Positions 2,911 through 26,930 of a DNA stretch of 64,000 bases are shown piece after piece. The stretch's first letter is position 1, and the number at the start of each line of letters is the position of its first letter. This DNA is from Plantactinospora soyae (GTDB taxonomy: Bacteria > Actinomycetota > Actinomycetes > Mycobacteriales > Micromonosporaceae), in the NCBI RefSeq assembly GCF_014874095.1, contig NZ_JADBEB010000001.1:3906001-3970000 (forward strand), read 5' to 3'. The notes beneath the pieces were generated by a model. The model was not told where the DNA came from and made no database searches. It worked only from the letters and a program-made list of their open reading frames with translations. The translations under genes and the position numbers were made by a program.

Positions 2911-4497
2911 GTGCGACTGACCGGTACGGGACACGCGAGCATGCGGATCGACACCGGTGCGGGCAGCATCCTGTGCGACCCATGGGTCAACCCGGCCTAT
3001 TTCGCCTCATGGTTCCCGTTCCCGGACAATTCACAGCTCGACTGGGAGACGCTCGGGCAGGTCGACTACCTGTACGTCTCGCACCTGCACCGGGACCACT
3101 TCGACGCCGAGCACCTCAAGCGGTTCATCTCGAAGAAGGCCACCGTCCTGCTTCCGGAATACCCCACCTCCGAACTCGAGGACGAGCTGCGGGAACTCGG
3201 GTTCACCAGCTTCCTGCGTACCAAGACCAACGAGGTCATGGAACTCGACGGCGGCCTGAAGGTGATGGTCCAGGCGCTGACCAGCCCGACCGACGGGCCG
3301 ATCGGTGACTCGTCGCTGTGGGTGGAGTACGACGGCGTACGGCTGCTGAACCAGAACGACGCCCGCCCGAGCGATCTCGACATCTTCGCCGAACTGGGCC
3401 ACGTGCACGCGCACCTGCTCCAGTTCTCCGGCGCGATCTGGTACCCGATGGTCTACGAGCTGCCCACGGCGGCCAAGACCGCGTTCGGCAAGCAGAAGCG
3501 CGACCGGCAGATGGACCGGACGATCCGCTACATCGACGACCTCAAGGCGTCCTGGGTCTTCCCGATCGCCGGCCCGCCGTGCTTCCTCGACGACGAGCTG
3601 TGGCAGTTCAACGACATCCACGGCGACGAGGGAAACATCTTCCCCGACCAGCAGGTCTTCCAGGACCACTACACCGAGCTGGGCTACGACAACAGCGTGA
3701 TCCTGCTGCCCGGCACCGTCTCCGAGGTCGGTGTTGACACCTGCGAGACCAGCCAACCGGTGCCGGACGTGCGGGAGTTCTTCGTCCGCAAGGAGGAGCA
3801 CCTGCGCGAGTACCAGGCCCGGTCCCGGCCGGTGATCGAGGCGGCGAAGGCATCCTGGCGGCATCCGGAGATCGACGTGCTGGCCGGGATGAAGCGTCGG
3901 ATCGAGCCGCTGCTGGACGAGTCGATCTACCTCGCCAAGGGGGTGGGCGGCCCGGTCCGGTTCGACCTGGTCGGCTACGACGGCGAGTCGGTCGAGTCCA
4001 TCCTGGTGGACTTCCCGGGCAAGGAGGTCCGGCCGGCCGCGGACGAGAAGGTGCGCTACCGGTTCCGTACCGAGCGGGCGCTGGTCGAGCATCTGCTGCA
4101 CATCGACGAGGTCGACTGGGTCAACTCGCTCTTCCTCTCCTGCCGGTTCTCCGCCGCCCGGATCGGCCAGTACAACGAGTTCGTCTACTCCTTCTTCAAG
4201 TGCCTCTCCGAGGAGCGCCTCCAGTACGCCGAGGGCTGGTACGACGAACACGAGCGGGCCGTCGACGCCGAGGACATCACCCTGGGCGACTGGGTGGTGC
4301 AGCGGCGCTGCCCGCACCTGAAGGCGGACCTGACCCGGTTCGGCATCGTCGAGGGCAACCAGCTCACCTGCCAGCTGCACGGCTGGCGGTTCGACCTGGA
4401 GAGCGGCCGCTGCCTGACCAGTGTCGGGCACAAGGTCCGGGCCCACCGGGCCGGCGAGCCCGCCCCGGTGACCGTCGACGCCGAGTCGGCCGGCTGA
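2911..4497 (+). CDS. MBL-fold hydrolase with C-terminal Rieske [2Fe-2S] domain
   Basis: 528 aa, GTG start. The N-terminus is a UlaG-like metallo-beta-lactamase fold: GTGHASMRID, then the metal motif H58-L-H60-R-D62-H63, and LLNQNDARP further on. The C-terminal ~70 residues form a Rieske-type cluster site, C467-P-H469 and C487-Q-L-H490 with 17 residues between the pairs, followed by GWRFDLESGRC, the usual Rieske sequence. The pairing of MBL and Rieske recalls vertebrate CMP-N-acetylneuraminate hydroxylase, but there the Rieske domain is N-terminal. An oxidoreductase or oxygenase role is inference; the substrate is unknown. No signal peptide, so cytoplasmic. It stands alone between a divergent DUF2631 gene and a convergent FAD oxidoreductase. 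Confidence 0.82.
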   Translation: MRLTGTGHASMRIDTGAGSILCDPWVNPAYFASWFPFPDNSQLDWETLGQVDYLYVSHLHRDHFDAEHLKRFISKKATVLLPEYPTSELEDELRELGFTSFLRTKTNEVMELDGGLKVMVQALTSPTDGPIGDSSLWVEYDGVRLLNQNDARPSDLDIFAELGHVHAHLLQFSGAIWYPMVYELPTAAKTAFGKQKRDRQMDRTIRYIDDLKASWVFPIAGPPCFLDDELWQFNDIHGDEGNIFPDQQVFQDHYTELGYDNSVILLPGTVSEVGVDTCETSQPVPDVREFFVRKEEHLREYQARSRPVIEAAKASWRHPEIDVLAGMKRRIEPLLDESIYLAKGVGGPVRFDLVGYDGESVESILVDFPGKEVRPAADEKVRYRFRTERALVEHLLHIDEVDWVNSLFLSCRFSAARIGQYNEFVYSFFKCLSEERLQYAEGWYDEHERAVDAEDITLGDWVVQRRCPHLKADLTRFGIVEGNQLTCQLHGWRFDLESGRCLTSVGHKVRAHRAGEPAPVTVDAESAG

Positions 4498-4518
4498 GCC
4501 GCCGACCGTGCACAGGCG

Positions 4519-4570
4519 TTAAGAAGGGGCCCTTCTACAACGGAAAGCGATAAGAAGGGGCCCTTCCTTT
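4519..4570. repeat. Dispersed GAAGGGGCCCTTC hairpin, copy 1 (bidirectional terminator)
   Basis: Two GAAGGGGCCCTTC blocks about 32 bp apart with the spacer ACAACGGAAAGCGAT sit exactly between two convergent genes. Each block is itself almost palindromic, so several alternative hairpins are possible. Reverse-complemented, it aligns with copies at 26935-26986 and 28081-28129, including part of the loop (TATCGCTTT). Confidence 0.8.
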
Positions 4571-6186
4571 CACCGGCCGGGGCCGACCTGGCCGAGGTCG
4601 GTGAGGATCCGCCGGGCGGCGTTGTGTCCGGCGGCGCCGATCACACTGCCGCCGGGGTGGCAGCCCGCACCACCGGCGTAGAGGCCGTCGAGCCCGGTCG
4701 CGTACGGCATCCGGTCGGTGAACGAGACGGTGTTGTCGACGTGGTGGATGTGCCCACCGGTGATGCCGAAGTGCGCCTCGATGCCCGGTGGGGTCAACGG
4801 AACCGCGTCGGCGACCAGTTCCGTGGTGCCGGGGGCGTACCGGTCGCAGATCGCGAGCAGTCGTTCCACGTACCCGGGCAGGAGCTCGTCCCAGGACGCG
4901 CCGGTCGGTGCGTACGGCACGGACTGGACGAAGAGCGCGGAGGAGTGGTGGCCCGCCTCGTCCCGCAGCGACGGGTCGACTGTGGTGTGCAGGTACCACT
5001 CGATCGTCGGCTCGTCCGGTAGCCGGCCGGCCTGGACGTCCGCCCACATCCGGCGCAGCGCCGCCATCGGCGGTTCGTCGCCGGTCGCACCGGGCAGCAG
5101 CGAGGTGGAGCCCGGCAGCAGGTGGATGGTGGCGCCGAACGGGCTCGGCGCGTCGGCGGGCAGGCAGGTGAACCGGGGCAGCCCGGAGAGGGCGAGGTTG
5201 ACCTTCAGGGTGGTGCCGGTGCGACGGACCGCCGTCATCCGCTCGGTCAGCGACGCCGGCAGGGCGCCGTCCGGCACCAGCTCCATCAGCCGGTACGGGT
5301 CACCGGCGCCGAGCACCACCTCGGCGTCGACCGTCCGCCCGTCGTCGAGTACGACGCCACTGGCCGCTCCGCCGTCGACGGTGATCGCGGACACCGGCGT
5401 ACCGCTGAGGATCGTGGCGCCCGCGGCTCGGGCGGCGTCGGCGAAGGTGCTGGTGACGGTGCCCATACCACCGGCGACGATCATCCAGGTGCCGCCCGAG
5501 CCGGGCAGCCGGCACATGTTGTGGGCCAGGAAGTTGTGGCCGGTTCCGGGGTCGTCCGGACCGGCGTTCAGTCCGGAGAGGCCGTCGGTGACGGCGTACA
5601 TCGAGACCAGCAGTTCGGAGCGGAAGTCGAACCGGGCCAGGTAGTCGGCGACCGAGCCGCGGACCAGATCGACGAAGGGCTCGCGGAGGGCGCGCCGGAT
5701 GTAGCGGTCGGCGGTCTCCTCCACCGGCAGCGGTTCGGCCAGCCAGGCCGGTCCGAGGTCCTCCCGGAGCGCGGCGAGTTCGGCCTGCATAGCGTCGTCG
5801 GCCGTCACGTCGGCCCGGGAGAAGAACCGTTCCATCTGCTCCCGGGTGCCCTCCCGGTCGGCCCCGAACAGCAGGTACGGCGAGCCGACACCACCCGGGG
5901 TGGGCAGGAAGTAGTGCGGATCGCGGCGCAGCACCGGGATCTGGACGTCGAGCAGCTCGATCAGCTCCGGCGGCATCAGGCCGAGCAGGTACGAGCCGGT
6001 GGAGTGGCGCAGGGCCGGCACCTTCGGAAACGGGTTCTCGGTGCGGGCCGCCCCGCCGATCGTGTCGGCGGCCTCCAGCACCACCACGTCGAGGCCGGCC
6101 CGGGCCAGCAGGATGGCGGAAACCAGGCCGTTGTGGCCGGCGCCGACGATCACGACGTCGGCGCGGGCGGGTAGCTCGGCGGTCAT
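4570..6186 (-). CDS. Phytoene-desaturase-like FAD-dependent oxidoreductase
   Basis: 538 aa, ATG start. Rossmann motif VVIVGAGHNG at residues 11-20 (GxGxxG) followed by VVVLEAADTIGGAARTE, the FAD-binding signature of the phytoene dehydrogenase/PYROXD2-like flavoproteins. The C-terminus has the second FAD motif (GLYAGGAGCHPGGSV). Substrate unknown; there is no carotenoid gene nearby, so a carotenoid role is not supported. The stop codon abuts hairpin copy 1. Upstream is a decayed TetR gene read in the same direction, which may once have regulated it. Confidence 0.85.
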   Translation of the reverse strand: MTAELPARADVVIVGAGHNGLVSAILLARAGLDVVVLEAADTIGGAARTENPFPKVPALRHSTGSYLLGLMPPELIELLDVQIPVLRRDPHYFLPTPGGVGSPYLLFGADREGTREQMERFFSRADVTADDAMQAELAALREDLGPAWLAEPLPVEETADRYIRRALREPFVDLVRGSVADYLARFDFRSELLVSMYAVTDGLSGLNAGPDDPGTGHNFLAHNMCRLPGSGGTWMIVAGGMGTVTSTFADAARAAGATILSGTPVSAITVDGGAASGVVLDDGRTVDAEVVLGAGDPYRLMELVPDGALPASLTERMTAVRRTGTTLKVNLALSGLPRFTCLPADAPSPFGATIHLLPGSTSLLPGATGDEPPMAALRRMWADVQAGRLPDEPTIEWYLHTTVDPSLRDEAGHHSSALFVQSVPYAPTGASWDELLPGYVERLLAICDRYAPGTTELVADAVPLTPPGIEAHFGITGGHIHHVDNTVSFTDRMPYATGLDGLYAGGAGCHPGGSVIGAAGHNAARRILTDLGQVGPGR

Positions 6187-11673: not shown

Positions 11674-11808
11674 AGTCTTCAGCCGACAGGATCTTCCCCG
11701 GTTCGGCCGTTGGACACCCCCGGAAGGAGGACGAGCCGGCCGCCGGAACCCGCGCAAATGGATGTCGGCGCCGGCCGAAGCCGACGCCGACACCACCGGA
11801 GGAGGAGG

Positions 11809-13869
11809 TCAGGAGGCGGTACAGGTCACCGCCGGCAGGCTGTTGGTGCCGTTCCAGGTGCCGATGAACCCGAAATTGGTGCTGGCCCCGGCACCGAGCG
11901 CCCCGTTGTGGGCGGCGTTCGTCGCGGTCACCGCCGAGCCGCTGGTCGTGATGCTCGTCTCCCAGGACTGGGAGACGGTCTGACCGTTGCCGAACGTCCA
12001 GGTCACCCGCCAGCCGCTGATCGCCGACGTTCCGGCGGTGACCCGGACCGCACCCTGGAAGCCGCCGGTCCACTGGCCGCTGACCGAGTACGCCGCCGTA
12101 CACGTCCGGCCGGTGGCGGGCGGTGTCGTGACCGGGGGAGTGGCCGGCGGGGTTGTGGTCGGCGGGGTGGTCGGGCCACTGGTCCCCCAGCCGGCGCTGC
12201 TGTCCAGCCAGGCGGTCCGGCGGAACATCCAGTCCCGCATGAACTGGACCTGCCCCTGCCAGGTGGCGGCGGTGGGCGTGACGAAGGGGCCGAGCATCCG
12301 GGTGCTGAGGTTCGGCCACCGCTGGAAGTTCCGCTGCGCGGCGTTGCCCAGCGGGGCGACGAGGGTGTTGATCCTGGACTCGAGCTGGGCGTTGGACAGT
12401 ACGCCCTGACGGAGCTGCTGCCAGCGGGTCCTAACCCGGTTGACGAACGCGGGGTCCTGGAGCAGCCGGACGAACCAGTCGTTGGCGCTCGGGCTCCGGG
12501 TCTGCTGGTACTGCCAACCGGAGACCTGGTCGTTGTTGAAGAAGCCGCCGACGCCGAAGCTGAGGTCGAAGTCCCACAGCGGCCCGGCGACGATCTTGCC
12601 GTCCCGATCCTTGTGGAAGTACGCGCTGCGCAGGTAGGAGTCCATCTCCCGGCTCAGCTCACTGACGATCAACTGATTGACGAAGGAGTCGATGTCGATC
12701 CAGGCGGGATAACCGGTCGTGGGATTGGCGAACCCCGGCGTTCGTAACAGGTCGTGGAACTGTTGGATGTGCTGGCGGAGCCAGTCGCGCTGCGCGGGTT
12801 GCAACGGGTCCGGGTCGACGACCTCCAGGTAGTGCCAGCAGGTCTGGTCGGCTCCCTGGCAGGGCAGGGTCGGCTCCTCGGCCGCCATCCACTCGAACTT
12901 GAAGATGTAGCCACCGGTGAGCTTGGGCAGCGTGACGTCCTCCTCGTCGAGCTGCTTCAGGTCGAGTCGGTTCTTCGAGTTCTTGATGGTCTCGACGATC
13001 AGGTACACCCCGAGGTAGTCGTTGGCGGCCACCGGTTGGGCGTCGGTGTTGACGTACACCTCGGCGAAGGCGAAGCGGGGGGCGTGGATGCCCATCTCGC
13101 GGCCGAGGCCGTACACGAAGGCGTCCCGGATCAGTGCCTTGTCGGTGTACGGCCCGCGCAGCACCCAGTCGGAGTCGGCGGGCATGCCGAGCAGCGGCAG
13201 GTCGCTGTCGTCGTCGGTGTTGTCCCGCAGTTCCAGCCGGTACGGAGTCTTCGGGAACATCGCACTGGAGTTCCCGCGCAGGTGGAAACCGGCCCGACTG
13301 ACCAGGTTGGGTGTCGCGGCGATCGAGGTGGACCCGTTCGTCGGCTGGAACTCCATCGCGGCCACGTCGACGTAGTCCCGCCCCGGGGCGCCGCGCCCGT
13401 ACGCGTCCAGCAGCAGGACCGGCAGGTCGTGGCTGGTGTTCACGGCGCGGGCGACGTAGAGCGCCGTACCGGGTGCTCCGGTGGCGGTGCCGCCGACGAA
13501 GGCCTGTGCCCGAAGCTGGGTCGTACGGGTGAACCGCAGCGGTGTCCCGGCGTAGCTGGGCGAGGTCGCGGTGGGCGGCTGGCCGTCGGTGGTGTAGCGG
13601 ACCTGGGCACCGCTCACGGTGGTACCCAGGCCGACCGAGACCTCGCCCTGGAAGGTGCCGCTCGGCACCGAGTACGTGATGTCGCCGGGGTCGGCCTGGG
13701 TGCTCACGTTGTCGGACGCTGCCGGTGGAGCAGGGGCGGCCGGTAGAGCCGGAGCGGCGACGGCGGCCGTACGGCTGATTCCGGCGCCCTGCCCGGGGGA
13801 CGCCCCGACATCCGTGCCGATGGTGGCGACCAGGAGGACGCCCACTACGTAGTACACGAGTCTGCGCAC
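11809..13869 (-). CDS. Secreted CotH-family kinase-like protein with C-terminal CBM2
   Basis: 686 aa, GTG start with GGAG 7 nt upstream. Order: signal peptide (about residues 1-24), Ala/Pro linker, a chitobiase/FN3-like beta-sandwich (about 60-135; VRYTTDGQPP), a CotH kinase domain (about 165-510; GFHLRGNSSAMFPKTPYRLEL, LGVYLIVETI, WDFDLSFG with the metal-binding Asp), a Thr/Pro linker, and a family-2 cellulose-binding module (last ~100 aa, two cysteines, GWRVTWTF and NFGFIGTWNG). CotH proteins are atypical kinases known for spore-coat protein phosphorylation in Bacillus. The CBM suggests action at a polysaccharide surface outside the cell (inference). Third gene of an operon, 12 bp after the VTC gene. 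Confidence 0.9.
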   Translation of the reverse strand: MRRLVYYVVGVLLVATIGTDVGASPGQGAGISRTAAVAAPALPAAPAPPAASDNVSTQADPGDITYSVPSGTFQGEVSVGLGTTVSGAQVRYTTDGQPPTATSPSYAGTPLRFTRTTQLRAQAFVGGTATGAPGTALYVARAVNTSHDLPVLLLDAYGRGAPGRDYVDVAAMEFQPTNGSTSIAATPNLVSRAGFHLRGNSSAMFPKTPYRLELRDNTDDDSDLPLLGMPADSDWVLRGPYTDKALIRDAFVYGLGREMGIHAPRFAFAEVYVNTDAQPVAANDYLGVYLIVETIKNSKNRLDLKQLDEEDVTLPKLTGGYIFKFEWMAAEEPTLPCQGADQTCWHYLEVVDPDPLQPAQRDWLRQHIQQFHDLLRTPGFANPTTGYPAWIDIDSFVNQLIVSELSREMDSYLRSAYFHKDRDGKIVAGPLWDFDLSFGVGGFFNNDQVSGWQYQQTRSPSANDWFVRLLQDPAFVNRVRTRWQQLRQGVLSNAQLESRINTLVAPLGNAAQRNFQRWPNLSTRMLGPFVTPTAATWQGQVQFMRDWMFRRTAWLDSSAGWGTSGPTTPPTTTPPATPPVTTPPATGRTCTAAYSVSGQWTGGFQGAVRVTAGTSAISGWRVTWTFGNGQTVSQSWETSITTSGSAVTATNAAHNGALGAGASTNFGFIGTWNGTNSLPAVTCTAS

Positions 13870-13881
13870 GGTTACTCCATT

Positions 13882-14817
13882 TCAGATCTGCCCGAGCGAC
13901 GGGCTGGGCCCGGCCGCCGGGGCGAAGTCGATGCGTCGGGGCGCGGGATGCGGCCGGCCGCCGTACTCGGGATGGGCGTCGTGCCGGACGAGGTCGGCAT
14001 CGACGTCGGAACGGCGGGGGACGGGGTGGGTGTCGTGGCCGCAGCTCGGGGAGCCGACCTGGGTGAAGTGCCGGCGCAGGGTCCGTCGCCACGGCGCCGC
14101 CGGCAGGTCGGGACGCAGCGCGGCCAGCCCGGTGGCGTACTTGGAGATCCGGGTCGGCCGGTAGCCGCGGACCCACAGCATCCGGTCCACCCGGGACGCG
14201 GTGGAGCCGGTCTTGGTCTCGACCACCGCCAGGTCCGGAAGCCGCAGCGGGCAACCGTCGTCCTGCCAGGTCAGCTCGGTGTCGATGGTGACCCGGCTGG
14301 TCGTGTCGGGCAGGAACAGGGTGCTGCGCCGGTACTGCGTGACGAGGGTGGGTACGAACGCCGGGGTGCCGCCGAGGACGATCGACTCCTGGGCGAGCAC
14401 GGTCTCGACGAACTGCCAGCCCGGGGCGAGCGTGGTGTGCTGGTCCGGCTCGTACGCCAACCGGTTCTTCACCGTGCTGCCCCGGGCGCCGTGTGTCTTG
14501 ACCTCCAGCCAGCACTGCGCCGAGTCGAGGTAGGTCCGGGTCCGAACCTTGAACCGACGGCGTCGGCGCTGGGCGGTCAGCAGATAGCTGGTCAGGTCCG
14601 GGGTGTCGAAGTACACCGACTGGTAGGCGAAGGAGCGGGCCCGGTCGATCTCCAGCACCCGGGTCTGGGGGCCGACCTCGGCGAGGACGGCACCGACCGC
14701 GCCGAGCGGCAGGACGTACTTGCGGTCGACCCGGGTCTGGAGGTCGGCGCGCTCGGTGAGTTCGTCGAGTCCGATCGGATCCAACCGGTCCAACGGGGCA
14801 CCGTCGAGCGTGGTCAT
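13882..14817 (-). CDS. VTC-domain polyphosphate polymerase-like protein
   Basis: 311 aa. ATG at 14817 overlaps the upstream stop (ATGA). VTC domain of the triphosphate-tunnel fold: RVDRKYVLP, YQSVYFDTPDL, RRRRFKVRTRTYLDS, WLEVKTHGARG, RVTIDTEL and LAVVETKTG, supplying the alternating basic and acidic residues that line the tunnel. In yeast Vtc4 this domain makes polyphosphate from ATP. Bacterial VTC proteins are found next to CotH and DUF4956 genes, as here, but their product is not established. The ~70-residue C-terminal tail is His/Arg/Pro-rich and unlike the core. No signal peptide, so cytoplasmic, presumably near the DUF4956 membrane protein. Confidence 0.88.
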   Translation of the reverse strand: MTTLDGAPLDRLDPIGLDELTERADLQTRVDRKYVLPLGAVGAVLAEVGPQTRVLEIDRARSFAYQSVYFDTPDLTSYLLTAQRRRRRFKVRTRTYLDSAQCWLEVKTHGARGSTVKNRLAYEPDQHTTLAPGWQFVETVLAQESIVLGGTPAFVPTLVTQYRRSTLFLPDTTSRVTIDTELTWQDDGCPLRLPDLAVVETKTGSTASRVDRMLWVRGYRPTRISKYATGLAALRPDLPAAPWRRTLRRHFTQVGSPSCGHDTHPVPRRSDVDADLVRHDAHPEYGGRPHPAPRRIDFAPAAGPSPSLGQI

Positions 14818-15422
14818 CGGGGTACTCCGCCCGAGGCGGCGGCGACCGTCACGCCGCGGACGGCGCGCTGCACCGAGGGGTGCGAGTAGCGGACGTCGAC
14901 CAGCGTCGTGTCGTTGACCAGGTCGACGCGCTGGATGCCGGCGGAGTGCACCCGGGCGCCGAGGATCTGTTCCAGATGGGCGACGAGCGCGACCTGGTCG
15001 GTGACGGCCGAGTCGAGGAGCACGCTCTGACGTCGGTAGCTGCGGAACAGCCGGGGATGGTCGCCGATGAACATCACCACGAGGATCAGGGCCATCATGG
15101 CCGGAACCTGCCACGGCGGGCCGCCGCCGAGTGCCGAGAGGATGCCGAGCGCCAGCGCGGAGAAGTAGTACGCCACCTCGTGCTGGTCCAGTTCCGTCGA
15201 GCGGAGCCGGATGATGGACAACACCCCGAACAGCGCCAGTCCGAGCCCCAGCCCGGTGCCGGCACTGCTGGTGCCGAGCGAACTCGCGACGGCCATGACC
15301 CCGATGTTGACGCCGAGGTACGCGGCCACGAGATCTCGGCGCCGGTGACGGGGAAAATAGAGCCCGAACACGAGCAGGTTCACTGCGACGATGTCGATCG
15401 CGAAGAGGGCGAGCTGAGGCAT
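14814..15422 (-). CDS. DUF4956 membrane protein
   Basis: 202 aa from the ATG at 15422, chosen because AGGAGGACAGG lies just upstream; a longer frame starts at 15446. About four membrane segments in the first ~125 residues (LALFAIDIVAVNLLVFGLYF and others) and a cytoplasmic C-terminal domain of ~80 residues. GVLSIIRLRSTEL is a conserved DUF4956 signature. First gene of the DUF4956 - VTC - CotH operon, with a 4-bp stop-start overlap to the VTC gene. The 300 bp upstream contain an AT-richer stretch (TATACAT at about 15502-15508 on the minus strand), a candidate promoter. Function unknown. Confidence 0.87.
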   Translation of the reverse strand: MPQLALFAIDIVAVNLLVFGLYFPRHRRRDLVAAYLGVNIGVMAVASSLGTSSAGTGLGLGLALFGVLSIIRLRSTELDQHEVAYYFSALALGILSALGGGPPWQVPAMMALILVVMFIGDHPRLFRSYRRQSVLLDSAVTDQVALVAHLEQILGARVHSAGIQRVDLVNDTTLVDVRYSHPSVQRAVRGVTVAAASGGVPR

Positions 15423-15626
15423 GGGTCCTGTCCTCCTGGATATCATCCGGTGGGTGGTGGGTTAACGGACGCCAACATCCAGGTTACATTGAAGAATCTC
15501 GATGTATATGGACGGCTCCTGCTAACAGTTTGTAACGAGACTAGATTCACAACTCTCGATCGAATCGGAGATGGTGTCAGGCGGTCGGTGTCAGGCGGTG
15601 GCGTCCGGCGGTGCGCAGACGAAAGC
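15423..15626. other. Intergenic leader of the DUF4956-VTC-CotH operon
   Basis: About 200 bp without a gene. It is AT-richer than the surroundings between 15465 and 15560 and probably holds the operon promoter (reading leftward). No clear operator dyad was seen. Confidence 0.4.
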
Positions 15627-15662
15627 GGCGGCTCCGACCCGTTTCACCGGGCCGGAACCGCC
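15627..15662 (-). terminator. Hairpin terminator of the galactanase operon
   Basis: A 15-bp stem with two G-U-type mismatches (GGCGGCTCCGACCCG / CGGGCCGGAACCGCC) and a 6-nt loop lies about 60 bp downstream of the GH53 stop codon at 15724. Confidence 0.7.
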
Positions 15663-15723
15663 GCATCGGGCTCCGTACTCCTTCGACGACCTCGCCCGAG
15701 GGGGCGGATCAGGTCAGGTCAGG

Positions 15724-17304
15724 TCATGCCGATCCGAAGACCGCCAGTCCGGGTAGTGCCCGGTCGCTGTAGTCGAACAGCGCCTGGTTCTCCCAGCCGT
15801 TGCCCGAGGACGCGTTCTCCGGATCCCAACCGTTACCGGCTACGGCCGTCCAGGTCGGCTCCCAGTAGAAGATCCCGAGGCCCCGCCCGTTCGGTACCGA
15901 CCGGACGACGTTGAACACCGCGCGCAGCGCGTCGGCCTGCCCCTGTGGAGTGGCCGGGTAGCCGCCGGCCTGTTGCAACGACGAGTTGAAGATGTTCGGC
16001 TCACTGTCGTCGGCGTTGAGCGTGAAGCCGTACGCGGTCTCGGCGACCAGCACCGGCCGGCCGTACCGGGACGCCAGGTCGTTCAGGTTGGCCTGGAGAC
16101 TGGACAGCGACCCGTGCCAGTAGAGGTAGTGGGAGACACCGATCACGTCGAACGGCACCCCCCGGGACGTCGCCTGGTCGAACCACCACCGGTGCTGCGA
16201 GTTGTTGCCGCCCTCGGCCAGGTGCAGCAGCACCTGGGTCGAGCTGTTAACCGCCTTCACCGCGTTGCTGCCGGCGGTGAGCAGGGCAGCCAGATTGGCC
16301 CAGTTGTTGCTGCGGCCGTCCGGCCAGAGCATGCCGTCGTTGATCTCGTTGCCGACCTGCACCATGTCGGCCGTCGTACCCTGCGCCTTCAGGGCGTTGA
16401 GGACGTCGTACGTGTGGTTGTAGACCGCGTCGCGCAGTTGGCTGAAGTTGTAGCCGTTCCAGGCGGCCGGCTTGTACTGCTTGCCGGGGTCCGCCCAGGT
16501 GTCCGAGTAGTGGAAGTCGACCAGCAGCTTCATCCCCTGCGCCTTGATCCGGCTGGCCATGGTCAGTACCCGGGCCTTGTTGTTGTAGCCGTCGGCCGGG
16601 TTGACCCAGACCTTCAGCCGGGCGTAGTTGACCCCGTTGGCGCCGAGCAGTTGCAACGGGTCGCGCTGGGTGCCGGCGGCGTCCCGGTAGACGCCACCCC
16701 GGTCCTGGCTCTTGAGCAGGGTGGAGATGTCGACGCCGCGGATCTGGGACACCGGGCCGCCGCTGCTGCCCCCGCCGACGAACTCCACGTCGTCGACGTT
16801 GATCCAGTTTCCGGCCTGCGCGTCGGAGACGATGCTCGCGGTGCACTGGCCGGTGCTGACCTGGGCGGTCACCGAGATCTGGGTCCAGTTGGCGGCGGTG
16901 GGGATGTTGACCCGCTGCTCGGTGCCGCCGCAGTTGCGCAGCGACAGGTAGGCGGCGACCTGGCCACCGCCGGAGCGTACCCAGGCCCGCAGCGTGTACG
17001 ACCCGTTGCCCAGCCCGGTGAGCTGCTGGTAGCTCTCCACCCGGTACGCGCCGGACGCCCAGTGGGTCAGTCGGTAGTTGCCGGAGCGTCCGCCCGCCTC
17101 GGTGAAGCCGGCGCTCTGCGTTCCGTTGCTGGAGGACTCCGACCAGCTCGTCGGTGTCTGGGTGGCACCGGAGGACTCGAAACCGGGGTTGGTGATGGTG
17201 GCGGCGGCGGACGCGGGGTTGGTGGGGCCGGCGACCATGCCGGCGACGAGCAGCACGAGGCCGGTGGCGGCAGCCAGCGTGCGGAGCGGGGACGGTCCGC
17301 TCAT
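15724..17304 (-). CDS. Secreted GH53 endo-beta-1,4-galactanase with N-terminal carbohydrate-binding-like domain
   Basis: 526 aa, ATG with GAGGAGG just upstream. Signal peptide to about residue 34 (PASAAA). Residues ~35-178 form a jelly-roll binding-like domain (ITNPGFESSG, YRVESYQQLTGL, cysteines C125 and C154, WINVDDVEF). The GH53 catalytic domain runs from ~185 to the end with acid/base E320 (VQVGNEIN) and nucleophile E422 (VLVAETAYG), RLKVWVNPADG and FHYSDTWADPGKQ. It hydrolyses beta-1,4-galactan outside the cell. It is the downstream gene of a pair with the paralogue at 17436, 131 bp away, and has no operator of its own. Confidence 0.95.
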   Translation of the reverse strand: MSGPSPLRTLAAATGLVLLVAGMVAGPTNPASAAATITNPGFESSGATQTPTSWSESSSNGTQSAGFTEAGGRSGNYRLTHWASGAYRVESYQQLTGLGNGSYTLRAWVRSGGGQVAAYLSLRNCGGTEQRVNIPTAANWTQISVTAQVSTGQCTASIVSDAQAGNWINVDDVEFVGGGSSGGPVSQIRGVDISTLLKSQDRGGVYRDAAGTQRDPLQLLGANGVNYARLKVWVNPADGYNNKARVLTMASRIKAQGMKLLVDFHYSDTWADPGKQYKPAAWNGYNFSQLRDAVYNHTYDVLNALKAQGTTADMVQVGNEINDGMLWPDGRSNNWANLAALLTAGSNAVKAVNSSTQVLLHLAEGGNNSQHRWWFDQATSRGVPFDVIGVSHYLYWHGSLSSLQANLNDLASRYGRPVLVAETAYGFTLNADDSEPNIFNSSLQQAGGYPATPQGQADALRAVFNVVRSVPNGRGLGIFYWEPTWTAVAGNGWDPENASSGNGWENQALFDYSDRALPGLAVFGSA

Positions 17305-17311
17305 GACGCCT

Positions 17312-17380
17312 CCTCGCTTCGCTCGTCGGTGTCATGAGCTTGGAGACTGAGCCAGCCGATTCGCTCGCTGCGCTCGCTCA
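17312..17380. repeat. GAGCGAAGCGAG palindromic elements between the two galactanase genes
   Basis: Two copies of the element also seen at 791-816: a short one (17312-17326) immediately ahead of the galactanase ribosome binding site and a longer one (17360-17380), both on the minus strand. Otherwise the 131-bp gap holds nothing recognisable; no LacI-type operator is present here. Confidence 0.55.
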
Positions 17381-17435
17381 TGGTTCTTCCTTCCGTCAAA
17401 GGGATCGGTCGCCGGCCCCCGGAGCGGTTGCCGGC

Positions 17436-19049
17436 CTACCGTTTCGGGCTCACCGAGTCGCCGAGCACCCGAAGCGCGGGCAGGGCTCGGCCGGAGTAGT
17501 CGAACAGGGCCTGGTTCTCCCAGCCGTCACCCGAGGCCGGGTCGGCCGGATCCCAGCCGGCGCCGTCGACGGCGGTCCAGGTCGGTTCCCAGTAGAAGAC
17601 GCCGAGCGCACCGGGTACGGCGGCCACGGTGTTGACCATGTCCCGCATCGCGTCGGCCTGGCCGTCCGGGGTCGCCGGGTAGCCACTGGTCTGCTGCAAC
17701 GAGGCGGTGAAGATGTTCGCCTCGTGGTCGTTCTCGGCCAGCGTGAAGCCGTACCCGGTCTCCACCACCATCACCGGCTTGCCGTACGCGCTGGTCAGGT
17801 CGAAGAGGTTGGCCTGGAGGGAGCCGAGCGGGCCGTGCCAGTAGGTGTAGTGCGAGACGGCGATGATGTCGAACGGGACGCCCCGGCTGACCGCGTTGTC
17901 GAACCACCAGCGATGGCCGCCGTTGTTTCCGCCCTCGGCCAGGTGCAGGGCAACCTTGCTCCGGGGCGAGGCGTCGGTGACCGCGGTGCTGGCCGTGGTG
18001 AGCAGCGCCGCCAGCCCGTCCCAGTTGTCCCAGCGGCCGTCCGGCCAGAGCATGCCGCCGTTGATCTCGTTGCCGATCTGGACCATGTCGGCCGGGGTGC
18101 CCTGCCGGCGCAGGCTCGCGACCACGTCGTACGTGTGGTCGTAGAGCGCCTGCCGGAGCTGGTCGAACGGCAACTCCGCCCAGGCGGCCGGCTTGAACTG
18201 CTTGCCGGGGTCGGCCCAGGTGTCCGAGTAGTGGAAGTCGATCAACAGGCCCATTCCGAGCGCGTGCGCCCGCCGGGCCTTGGCGAGTACGTCCTCCTTG
18301 TCGCTGAATCCGTCGGCCGGGTTGACCCAGACCTTCAGCCGGGCGTAGTTGACGCCGTTGGCCCGCAGGATCCGCAGCGCGTCCCGGGGTGGTCCGGTGC
18401 GGTCCCGGTACACGGCGCCGTAATGCTCGTTCTTGGTCAGGTGCGACACGTCGGCCCCGGCGATCCGCAGCGCGGGGCCACCGGCCGGGCCGTCCGCGCG
18501 GGTGAGGCTCAGGTCGTCGAAGTGCGCCCAGTCCCCGGCGTTGCCGTCGGAGACGAGTTCGATCGTGCACCGGCCGGAGGTGACCCGGGTGGTGAGGGCG
18601 ACCTCGACCCACCAGTCGGCACCGGTACGCGGCAGGTCGACGCGCTCAGTCGCCCCGCCGCACCCGGTGAGCGCGACGTGCGCGTCCCGCTGTCCGCCGC
18701 TGGCCCGGACCGACACCCGCAGCGTGTGGTAGCCGGGCCGTAGCCCGCTGAGCCGCTGGGAGGTCTCGACCCGGTAGGGCTGCTCGGCCCAGTGGGTGAG
18801 CCGGTTCTCCCCGGACCGGCCACCCGGCTCGGCGAAGCTGGCCGACCGCTGGCCGCGCTCCGACCAGCCGGCCGGTGATCCGAGGTCGCCGGTGGTCTCG
18901 AACCCCGGGTTCGCCACTTCGCCGGCCGGGCTGGTGACCCCGGCGCCGGCGCCGAACCCGCCGCTGGCCACCGCCGGTCGACCGAGATCCGGTACGACGA
19001 CGGCGGCGACCAGCGCGAGAGCTCCGAACGCGATTTTCCTGTTCTGCAT
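17436..19049 (-). CDS. Secreted GH53 endo-beta-1,4-galactanase, second paralogue
   Basis: 537 aa. The ATG at 19049 is preferred over an upstream frame start because AAGGAGG precedes it and a signal peptide follows (KIAFGALALVAAVVV). Same layout as its neighbour: N-terminal jelly-roll-like domain (~45-185, cysteines C130 and C161, WAHFDDLSL) and GH53 domain with acid/base E328 (VQIGNEIN) and nucleophile E430 (VMVVETGYG). The two are clearly paralogues by duplication, but only moderately similar outside the catalytic domain. First gene of the galactanase operon, preceded by two LacI-type operators. Confidence 0.95.
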   Translation of the reverse strand: MQNRKIAFGALALVAAVVVPDLGRPAVASGGFGAGAGVTSPAGEVANPGFETTGDLGSPAGWSERGQRSASFAEPGGRSGENRLTHWAEQPYRVETSQRLSGLRPGYHTLRVSVRASGGQRDAHVALTGCGGATERVDLPRTGADWWVEVALTTRVTSGRCTIELVSDGNAGDWAHFDDLSLTRADGPAGGPALRIAGADVSHLTKNEHYGAVYRDRTGPPRDALRILRANGVNYARLKVWVNPADGFSDKEDVLAKARRAHALGMGLLIDFHYSDTWADPGKQFKPAAWAELPFDQLRQALYDHTYDVVASLRRQGTPADMVQIGNEINGGMLWPDGRWDNWDGLAALLTTASTAVTDASPRSKVALHLAEGGNNGGHRWWFDNAVSRGVPFDIIAVSHYTYWHGPLGSLQANLFDLTSAYGKPVMVVETGYGFTLAENDHEANIFTASLQQTSGYPATPDGQADAMRDMVNTVAAVPGALGVFYWEPTWTAVDGAGWDPADPASGDGWENQALFDYSGRALPALRVLGDSVSPKR

Positions 19050-19130
19050 CGGCGAACGTTCCTCCTTGTCGGAACCGGCGCCGCAGGCGGGACTCCGCCG
19101 GGGCGCCAGCACCGCATATCAGCCCGGAAT

Positions 19131-26090: not shown

Positions 26091-26930
26091 GTGCTGATGG
26101 TTCCGGTACGCCAGCTCGGCGAGGCCGAGCGTGGCGCGGTGGAGCGGATCCTCGAACTCGACCCCTTCGCCGCCGCGCAGGTGGCCGAACGGGTCGCCGC
26201 GAACGGCCTGTCCTGGTGGCGGGCGGACGGTCGGGTGCTGGGCTACGGCTCCCGGGACCAGATCGAGTCGCTCTGCTGGCTGGGCGGTCAGCTCACCCCC
26301 GTCTGTGCCAACCGGTCGGCGATCGCGGCCTTCGCCGAGGCGCTCGGCGCGGAGGAACGGGGCTGCTCATCGATCGTCGGACGGGCCGAAGGGGTGCTCG
26401 GGCTCTGGGAGCGGCTCTCCTCCCGGTGGGGCCCGGCCCGGGACGTACGCCCCAATCAACCCCTGTTGGCGACGGACGCGGTACCGCAGGTGGAACCGGA
26501 CCCGGACGTACATCCGGTCCGGGCGGGCGAAATCGACGGGCTCTTTCCGGCGGCGGTGGCGATGTACACCGAGGAGGTGGGCGTCTCGCCGCTGGCCGAG
26601 GACGGCGGGCGGGCGTACCGGCAGCGGGTCGCCGAGCTGGTCCGGGCGCGGCGGGCGTACGCCCGGTTCGTCGACGGGCAAGTGATCTTCAAGGCCGAAC
26701 TGGCGGTCGTCACCCGGCGCACCGCGCAGATCCAGGGAGTCTGGGTCGACCCGGCCTGGCGCGGCCGGGGCATCGGTGCCGCCGCGATGGCCGCCGTGGT
26801 ACGCGACGCACTCGCCCGGGTCGCGCCCACCGTGAGCCTCTACGTCAACGACTACAACGCGCCGGCCCGCCGGGTCTACGAGCGGTGCGGCTTCCGCACG
26901 GTGGGCACCTTCGCCACCGTGCTCTTCTGA
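26091..26930 (+). CDS. DUF4081/GNAT-domain acetyltransferase
   Basis: 279 aa, GTG start (an ATG two codons later is possible). The N-terminal ~130 residues match the DUF4081 region (FAAAQVAERV, GRVLGYGSRD, CANRSAIAAFAEAL) and the C-terminal half is a GNAT fold (IQGVWVDPAWRGRGIGAAAMAAVV, YVNDYNAPARRVYERCGF) with an intact acetyl-CoA loop RGRGIG. In mycobacteria the orthologue directly follows ispG; here the galactan and CotH loci lie between. Substrate unknown. Convergent with the flavin reductase; hairpin copy 2 lies between them. Confidence 0.88.
   Translation: MLMVPVRQLGEAERGAVERILELDPFAAAQVAERVAANGLSWWRADGRVLGYGSRDQIESLCWLGGQLTPVCANRSAIAAFAEALGAEERGCSSIVGRAEGVLGLWERLSSRWGPARDVRPNQPLLATDAVPQVEPDPDVHPVRAGEIDGLFPAAVAMYTEEVGVSPLAEDGGRAYRQRVAELVRARRAYARFVDGQVIFKAELAVVTRRTAQIQGVWVDPAWRGRGIGAAAMAAVVRDALARVAPTVSLYVNDYNAPARRVYERCGFRTVGTFATVLF

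Follow-up and report, generated by a model that had tools for sequence, protein, structure and literature searches.

A near-obligate DUF4956–VTC gene pair, proposed to form a membrane-coupled polyphosphate polymerase with an exchangeable surface partner, in Plantactinospora soyae and its relatives

The window studied here is a stretch of 64,000 nucleotides from Plantactinospora soyae (contig NZ_JADBEB010000001.1, positions 3,906,001 to 3,970,000). Three adjoining genes on its minus strand encode a DUF4956 membrane protein, a protein of the VTC family of polyphosphate polymerases, and a CotH-family kinase. The first two genes are the constant core of this trio and, across related genomes, form a near-obligate pair. 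We propose, at slightly less than even confidence, that the pair is a polyphosphate polymerase coupled to the membrane, which may also translocate its product, is under phosphate control, and serves a swappable partner at the cell surface.

14814–15422, minus strand: DUF4956 gene, with an ATG start at 15422 and AGGAGG directly 5' of the start (PF16316, 1.4e-58)
13882–14817, minus strand: VTC gene (PF09359, 1e-26)
11809–13869, minus strand: CotH-family kinase gene, with a GTG start at 13869 (Pfam CotH, 1e-64)

A preliminary description of this DNA had called the three genes tightly linked, and the open reading frames agree, with a 4-bp overlap (ATGA) at the DUF4956/VTC junction and a 12-bp gap between VTC and CotH. 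Its family assignments (DUF4956, VTC, CotH, CBM2, and a chitobiase-like domain) likewise match those of Pfam. The host genome, a single contig of 9.7 Mb, yields one VTC match and one CotH match. Among named relatives of the window VTC, the best two also come from Plantactinospora.

Pairing was assessed in 121 genomes of the family, with neighboring pieces merged into places. VTC lies within 1 kb of DUF4956 at 100 of 103 places, and the reverse count is also 100 of 103. Each family occurs in 60 genomes, and 59 genomes carry both. Of the six exceptions, two are sub-threshold DUF4956 matches and one is a DUF4956 close to the start of a contig; two more are partial VTC matches, and the last is a full-length VTC. 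CotH is found within 3 kb of the pair at 65 of 72 places. VTC and DUF4956 match in the same three of 14 named control genomes, and the control genome of Corynebacterium glutamicum matches CotH as well as these two families. DUF4956 directly precedes VTC in 79 of 80 named actinobacterial loci (the exception is L187); these loci are the best 80 of 241 matches and therefore lean toward the class of the window. In a phylum-wide sample, VTC is present in 32 of 296 genomes, and DUF4956 adjoins it in all 28 loci in which VTC was called (31 were fetched; L230, L234, and L243 were left out).

The loci of relatives, in which genes were called with a simple script of our own and not a standard gene finder, fall into two classes. 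Class A has the order VTC, DUF4956, partner, and class B, to which the window belongs, has the order DUF4956, VTC, partner. The 4-bp overlap between DUF4956 and VTC recurs in 124 of 137 class-B pairs, which argues that the layout is not accidental; some species sit in both the family and the named set, here and in the partner counts below. A chance neighborhood is ruled out by the pairing, partner-adjacency, and overlap counts across loci. That such trios recur in bacteria, as had been claimed before, is confirmed by the adjacency of the same families in relatives, in the phylum-wide sample, and on plasmids. A plasmid search for class-A VTC returned 2 records, and the region in Paenibacillus has no annotated gene. 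In 20 of 81 family loci, a response-regulator cluster and its presumed histidine kinase are no more than four genes away from the pair.

A profile of VTC built from 31 relatives matches the catalytic domain of yeast Vtc4 (3g3q) with an E value of 6e-15; the window protein used as a single sequence did not find 3g3q. In the profile alignment, residues K200, R264, R266, K281, and K294 of Vtc4 correspond to K33, R92, R94, K107, and K117 of the window protein, and R361, R373, E426, and K458 correspond to R164, R175, E200, and K226. Eight of these nine mapped tunnel residues are invariant over the 31 sequences; the ninth, K33, has a conservation of at least 90%. Thus, the polyphosphate-polymerase fold noted in the preliminary description appears to hold an intact polyphosphate tunnel, and homology to Vtc4 and the conserved tunnel place the protein among VTC-type polymerases. 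We take the mapped positions other than R264, R266, and E426 to be important as well. Changes at R264, R266, and E426 themselves impair the yeast VTC complex (PMC9911596). The window protein is predicted to be cytoplasmic and, judging by its residues, likely makes polyphosphate. An apparent fusion of VTC to an MFS protein in one relative (L077) is probably a run-on frame.

For the membrane protein, an AlphaFold2 model gives the following feature.

Residues 9–129 of the 210-residue reading from 15446, minus strand: five predicted helices (low-confidence model)

After the helices, this model has a possible ACT-like beta-alpha-beta-beta domain (predicted local distance difference test [pLDDT] 61, low confidence); modeling from the single sequence gave a pLDDT of 50. 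Residues H34, R80, and R82 are invariant across 31 sequences from classes A and B, despite the fact that class-A proteins are only 16 to 18% identical to the window protein. A search of the PDB with a DUF4956 profile gave 7 matches at E ≤ 1, with yeast VTC proteins not among them. The best E value in a fold search was 0.02, and ACT-domain proteins were among the weak matches. Thus, the locus resembles a VTC-like complex in having a co-encoded membrane partner, and homology of that partner to the transmembrane domain of yeast VTC was found neither with the profile nor in the fold search with this weak model. No DUF4956 was found in the viral contigs searched, and a literature search without preprints and most subscription journals found no function for DUF4956, a name that 3 papers within this scope contain.

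The third gene differs among loci. CotH was told apart from the carbohydrate-binding protein Cthe_2159 by domain profiles checked with Pfam, and a separate class-A CotH profile was added. In class A, the third gene on the same strand is CotH in 19 of 20 loci, and the 20th has a short split frame. Such a gene is present in 48 class-B family loci, as CotH in 21 cases and as Cthe_2159 in 23; the corresponding counts in the named set are 58 and 14 of 73. On either side, a partner directly adjoins the pair in 147 of 161 loci, and 3 loci are at contig edges. On a tree of 130 rows from class B alone, CotH versus Cthe_2159 takes 3 changes, and CotH versus all other states also takes 3, compared with an average of 40.6 for shuffled labels. 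When only well-supported branches are retained, 1 change is forced for CotH and 3 are forced for Cthe_2159. Because few changes are forced, and because the tree was built by a quick method with long branches flagged, repeated exchange of the third gene between CotH and Cthe_2159 is likely but not firm. By a crude test, a hydrophobic N-terminal stretch is present in 77 of 80 CotH and 40 of 44 Cthe_2159 proteins, versus 9 of 158 VTC proteins.

One locus from a Dactylosporangium metagenome-assembled genome (L063, the same locus as L116; positions 3516–5678) encodes a Cthe_2159 protein carrying the CBM2 that is found on the CotH proteins of its tree neighbors. Here, the front domain was seemingly swapped and the binding module retained. 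Fifteen plasmid records have a VTC match, and five were viewed. Four are alphaproteobacterial plasmids with a phytase-like gene in third or fourth position, as checked by Pfam for three of them and by annotation for one, and in that of Nitratireductor a phosphate transporter precedes the phytase-like gene. The fifth, from Deinococcus taeanensis, has the order CotH-VTC-DUF4956.

A deep class-B branch (L039, L042, L043, L053, and L056) has neither CotH nor Cthe_2159. Genes of glycosyltransferase family 2 (GT2) type and sulfotransferase type are upstream (one member of each was scanned), and a response regulator adjoins. In 11 of 81 loci (L050, L065, L069, L070, L072, L080, L081, L085, L087, L089, and L090), a gene of the NAGPA cluster, a phosphodiester glycosidase according to the one member scanned, is at most four genes from the pair. 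Most of these loci also have a gene of GT2-GtrA type, which hints at a phosphoglycan.

The partner encoded in the window has a signal-peptide-like N-terminus followed by three domains, in keeping with the earlier account of a secreted kinase with a chitobiase-like domain and a cellulose-binding module.

13474–13665, minus strand: CHB_HEX_C_1 domain, residues 69–132 (Pfam, 1.1e-13)
12205–13284, minus strand: CotH kinase domain, residues 196–555 (Pfam, 1e-64)
11827–12102, minus strand: CBM2, residues 590–681 (Pfam CBM_2, 2.4e-21)

A profile of the full-length protein matches Bacillus cereus CotH (5jd9) with an E value of 1.3e-10, and a profile of the kinase domain matches it at 9e-4, with a weak second segment. 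Across 21 sequences from class B, class A, and Deinococcus, residues D410 and D433 never vary, and their spacing of 23 residues equals that of the aligned aspartates in 5jd9. In B. subtilis CotH, D228 and D251 have the same 23-residue spacing, and the D228Q and D251A proteins are inactive (PMC7821199). Kinase activity is predicted for the window protein from its CotH domain and these two catalytic-type aspartates. These features are shared with the spore-coat kinase of Bacillus; unlike that enzyme, the window protein has a signal-like N-terminus, the CHB_HEX domain, and CBM2, and its gene adjoins VTC and DUF4956. A literature search of the same scope as above for CotH and phosphate starvation had no CotH among the matches listed (12 of 67).

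Upstream of DUF4956 are the following features.

15423–15624, minus strand: probable promoter and leader of the trio, with conserved blocks in five related leaders
15449–15466, minus strand: degenerate PHO-box-like repeat, GTTAACC-CACC-ACCCACC, with 4 mismatches in 14

The sequence GTTCACC-N4-GTTCACC is the core of the PHO box of Streptomyces coelicolor (PMC9019756). Of 139 class-B loci, 28 have a repeat with at most 2 mismatches in 14 no more than 300 bp upstream of DUF4956, compared with 0.4% of 1264 control promoters from the same loci. Seven other spacings gave 0 to 5 of 139 loci, and four permuted words gave 0 to 3 of 139. The named set alone has the repeat in 24 of 79 loci, representing 10 of 18 genera. 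As a positive control, pstS of the host genome has a PHO box with 1 mismatch. Sister species have 2 to 3 mismatches at the place of the repeat in the window. On this sequence evidence, we propose that, in many relatives if not in all, the DUF4956–VTC unit is part of the phosphate regulon of PhoP. Because PhoP acts on some genes as an activator and on others as a repressor, the repeats alone do not set the direction of control. A simple scan of the promoter and leader region produced no sigma-70-like site.

Within the leader (15479–15536, minus strand), words like GTTACAAACTGTTAGC and CTTCAATGTAACCTGG are conserved in five relatives. An RNA element in the leader was considered and rejected, because there is no Rfam match at gathering score and the strong predicted fold (z −4.4) takes in the terminator hairpin described below.

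In the mechanism that we propose, DUF4956 and VTC would act as one enzyme unit. VTC would sit on the cytoplasmic side of the membrane and polymerize phosphate from ATP in a basic tunnel of the Vtc4 type, an activity suggested by strong homology. DUF4956 would be its membrane partner and probably moves the growing chain outward, by analogy with the transmembrane helices of yeast VTC and in view of the conserved H34, R80, and R82. The yeast complex both polymerizes and translocates, and basic residues of its first transmembrane helices line the channel (PMC9911596). The window genes share with that complex (Vtc4/Vtc3/Vtc1) a homologous catalytic domain, the tunnel residues, and a membrane part with conserved basic residues; unlike in yeast, the membrane part is a DUF4956 protein for which no match to the yeast VTC proteins was found, the genes are separate, and Pfam finds no SPX match on the three proteins. 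The unit would be expressed under the PhoP regulon, at least in many relatives. The third gene would supply an exported partner that works at the cell surface where the polymer emerges, and the binding modules suggest that this partner acts on a surface polymer. In the window, the partner is the CotH kinase, perhaps held on polysaccharide by its CBM2; in relatives, this role would fall to the carbohydrate-binding protein Cthe_2159 or to a phytase-like one. The likely purpose would be to modify or organize surface or matrix polysaccharide under phosphate control. Elsewhere in bacteria, gonococci carry surface polyphosphate, in amounts that are lower in ppk mutants (PMC10237660).

Because the kinase would be exported to a place without obvious ATP, exported polyphosphate might itself be the phosphoryl donor with which CotH phosphorylates a surface glycan or protein. 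We regard this addition as improbable. If it is true, replacement of CotH by Cthe_2159 or a phytase-like protein would change the use of the polymer.

The preliminary description knew of no assigned function for such trios and suggested a route that makes a phosphate polymer inside the cell and acts on a carbohydrate surface outside. Its observation of the trio is confirmed. Its interpretation is partly supported: the families, the apparently intact tunnel, the signal-like N-terminus of the kinase, and the conservation of the trio agree with it, with polymer synthesis and a carbohydrate target as predictions. It did not include the exchange of partners, the PHO-box-like promoters of relatives, or the published description of the same families as accessories of pel operons with deletion phenotypes. 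Genes for CotH, a polyphosphate polymerase, and DUF4956 adjoin pel in streptococci, clostridia, and bifidobacteria (PMC7112168). In the accessible part of a 2025 report on Streptococcus intermedius, deletion of SIR_1592 reduces aggregation and raises Pel, deletion of SIR_1594 (CotH) reduces both, and all four accessory mutants still make Pel (PMC12345266). SIR_1592 has four transmembrane segments and an ACT domain, from which we infer that it is DUF4956. Thus, the Gram-positive pel accessory set (PMC7112168; SIR_1592–1594, PMC12345266) has the same three families adjoining. Unlike that set, the window kinase has CBM2, and the relatives of the window often carry Cthe_2159 in place of CotH and PHO-box-like promoters. 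Moreover, PelG has no match in the host genome or in any of the 121 family genomes (other pel genes were not searched), so the three families are adjacent here without contiguity to pelDEADAFG as judged by PelG, and membership of the window trio in a Pel system is ruled out. As far as its accessible part goes, the 2025 report encountered no such trio away from pel (PMC12345266).

Several observations weigh against the proposed polymerase and translocase. The strongest, for any simple account based on polyphosphate, is that deletion of the polymerase gene SIR_1593 in S. intermedius has no effect reported in the accessible part of the study (PMC12345266), which argues against a need for polyphosphate there. 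In one bifidobacterial study, polyphosphate is tied to ppk and is said not to be actively transported (PMC10329679). The host genome also has a PP_kinase (PPK1-type) gene; therefore, VTC is not the sole possible source of polyphosphate. The role of DUF4956 as a channel is proposed from helix count, conserved basic residues, and analogy, and the fold search with the weak model (pLDDT 61) gave no match at E ≤ 0.001. The 4-mismatch site of the window is not significant by itself and is equaled or bettered by 26% of control promoters, and none of 20 class-A loci has the repeat at 2 or fewer mismatches. Finally, 11 of 161 loci have no recognized partner, and one genome (G003, locus L040) has a full-length VTC and adjoining CotH with no DUF4956 called within 1 kb.

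The pair could instead make a membrane-tethered store of polyphosphate inside the cell, without export, while the exported partner is co-regulated and acts separately. We consider this unlikely. With the C-terminus inside, as we read the predictions, the conserved arginines and the ACT-like domain of DUF4956 would be cytoplasmic. In two Streptomyces species, ppk too has PHO boxes upstream (PMC7866108), and the phosphate transporter adjoins the pair in Nitratireductor. However, a store of this kind leaves unexplained the frequent CotH or Cthe_2159 neighbor with a signal-like N-terminus and the fact that partner type tracks the DUF4956–VTC tree.

Alternatively, and again unlikely, if by a shade more so, the trio might tune a polysaccharide synthase: CotH would phosphorylate the synthase, a matrix protein, or a glycan, and VTC would sense polyphosphate or a nucleotide without making a long polymer. 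The presence of the trio at pel loci (PMC7112168) is consistent with this reading, as are the changed Pel amounts in two S. intermedius deletions, with none reported for VTC in the accessible part of the study (PMC12345266), and the NAGPA-type gene close by in 11 of 81 loci. In one relative (L229, 2104–6934), the genes after VTC-DUF4956-CotH encode an unknown protein, a HEAT protein, and a GT2 resembling chitin synthase. Clostridium perfringens NELoc-2 likewise has VTC, a membrane protein of 222 to 226 residues, CotH, a large unknown protein, HEAT, and a glycosyltransferase in a row, and these HEAT and GT2 genes also favor tuning; unlike in L229, the membrane proteins are named tubulin/FtsZ there (PMC2879425). 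The "tubulin" genes may be DUF4956. Yet PelG is unmatched in the family genomes, the 10 window genes scanned around the trio include no polysaccharide synthase, and the mapped catalytic tunnel residues are kept, which a plain sensor would not need. That the pair runs in reverse in phosphate starvation, taking up or breaking down external polyphosphate or phosphorylated polymers with the partner as binder or liberator, is very improbable: the PHO-box-like promoters, phytase-like partner, and binding modules would suit it, but yeast VTC polymerizes and translocates (PMC9911596), and a kinase is ill-suited to scavenging.

Comparison with a genome of the same genus (G058) sets the borders of the trio.

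11675–15624 (borders approximate): stretch absent from G058, by DNA comparison (empty site)
About 15625–15665, minus strand: terminator-like hairpin following the upstream GH53 gene (stem of 17 pairs), with a similar one kept in G058

DNA similarity between the window and G058 ends near 11675 and resumes at the hairpin and the GH53 gene (15730). Over the stretch compared, G058 keeps PadR, both GH53 genes, GH42, the transporter, LacI, and GNAT in the same order and is without the trio only; no VTC, DUF4956, or CotH match occurs elsewhere in that genome. The empty site is clean, so the trio is a separate unit that was acquired or deleted as a whole. The window has two tandem GH53 endo-galactanase genes (15724–19112; 60% identity over 498 residues) that are accompanied by GH42, a sugar ABC transporter, and LacI, and thus form an island for galactan use. 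The trio is separable from this island, because G058 has the galactan genes without it, and the adjoining island is a separate unit. Membership of the trio in a galactan operon is ruled out by the terminator, the empty site, and the presence of the GH53-gene cluster in only 6 of 81 family loci. Another genome (G010) lacks the island that the window has between PadR and GNAT (gene at 26091–26930): ispG, PadR, and GNAT are there confined to about 4 kb, and the 19.5 kb viewed gave no match to any galactan or trio gene. Thus, the earlier claim that an accessory island separates ispG from GNAT holds in this one comparison. The PadR regulator of the window lies near the pair, and PadR is also kept in two genomes without the trio.

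These data place the trio outside pel loci and yield a specific functional proposal for DUF4956. To our knowledge, how bacteria place polyphosphate outside the cell and what donor secreted kinases use are both open questions. A polymerase and membrane protein that are hardly ever split in 121 genomes, with phosphate-type promoters in many relatives and a swappable partner, make both questions testable in actinomycetes.

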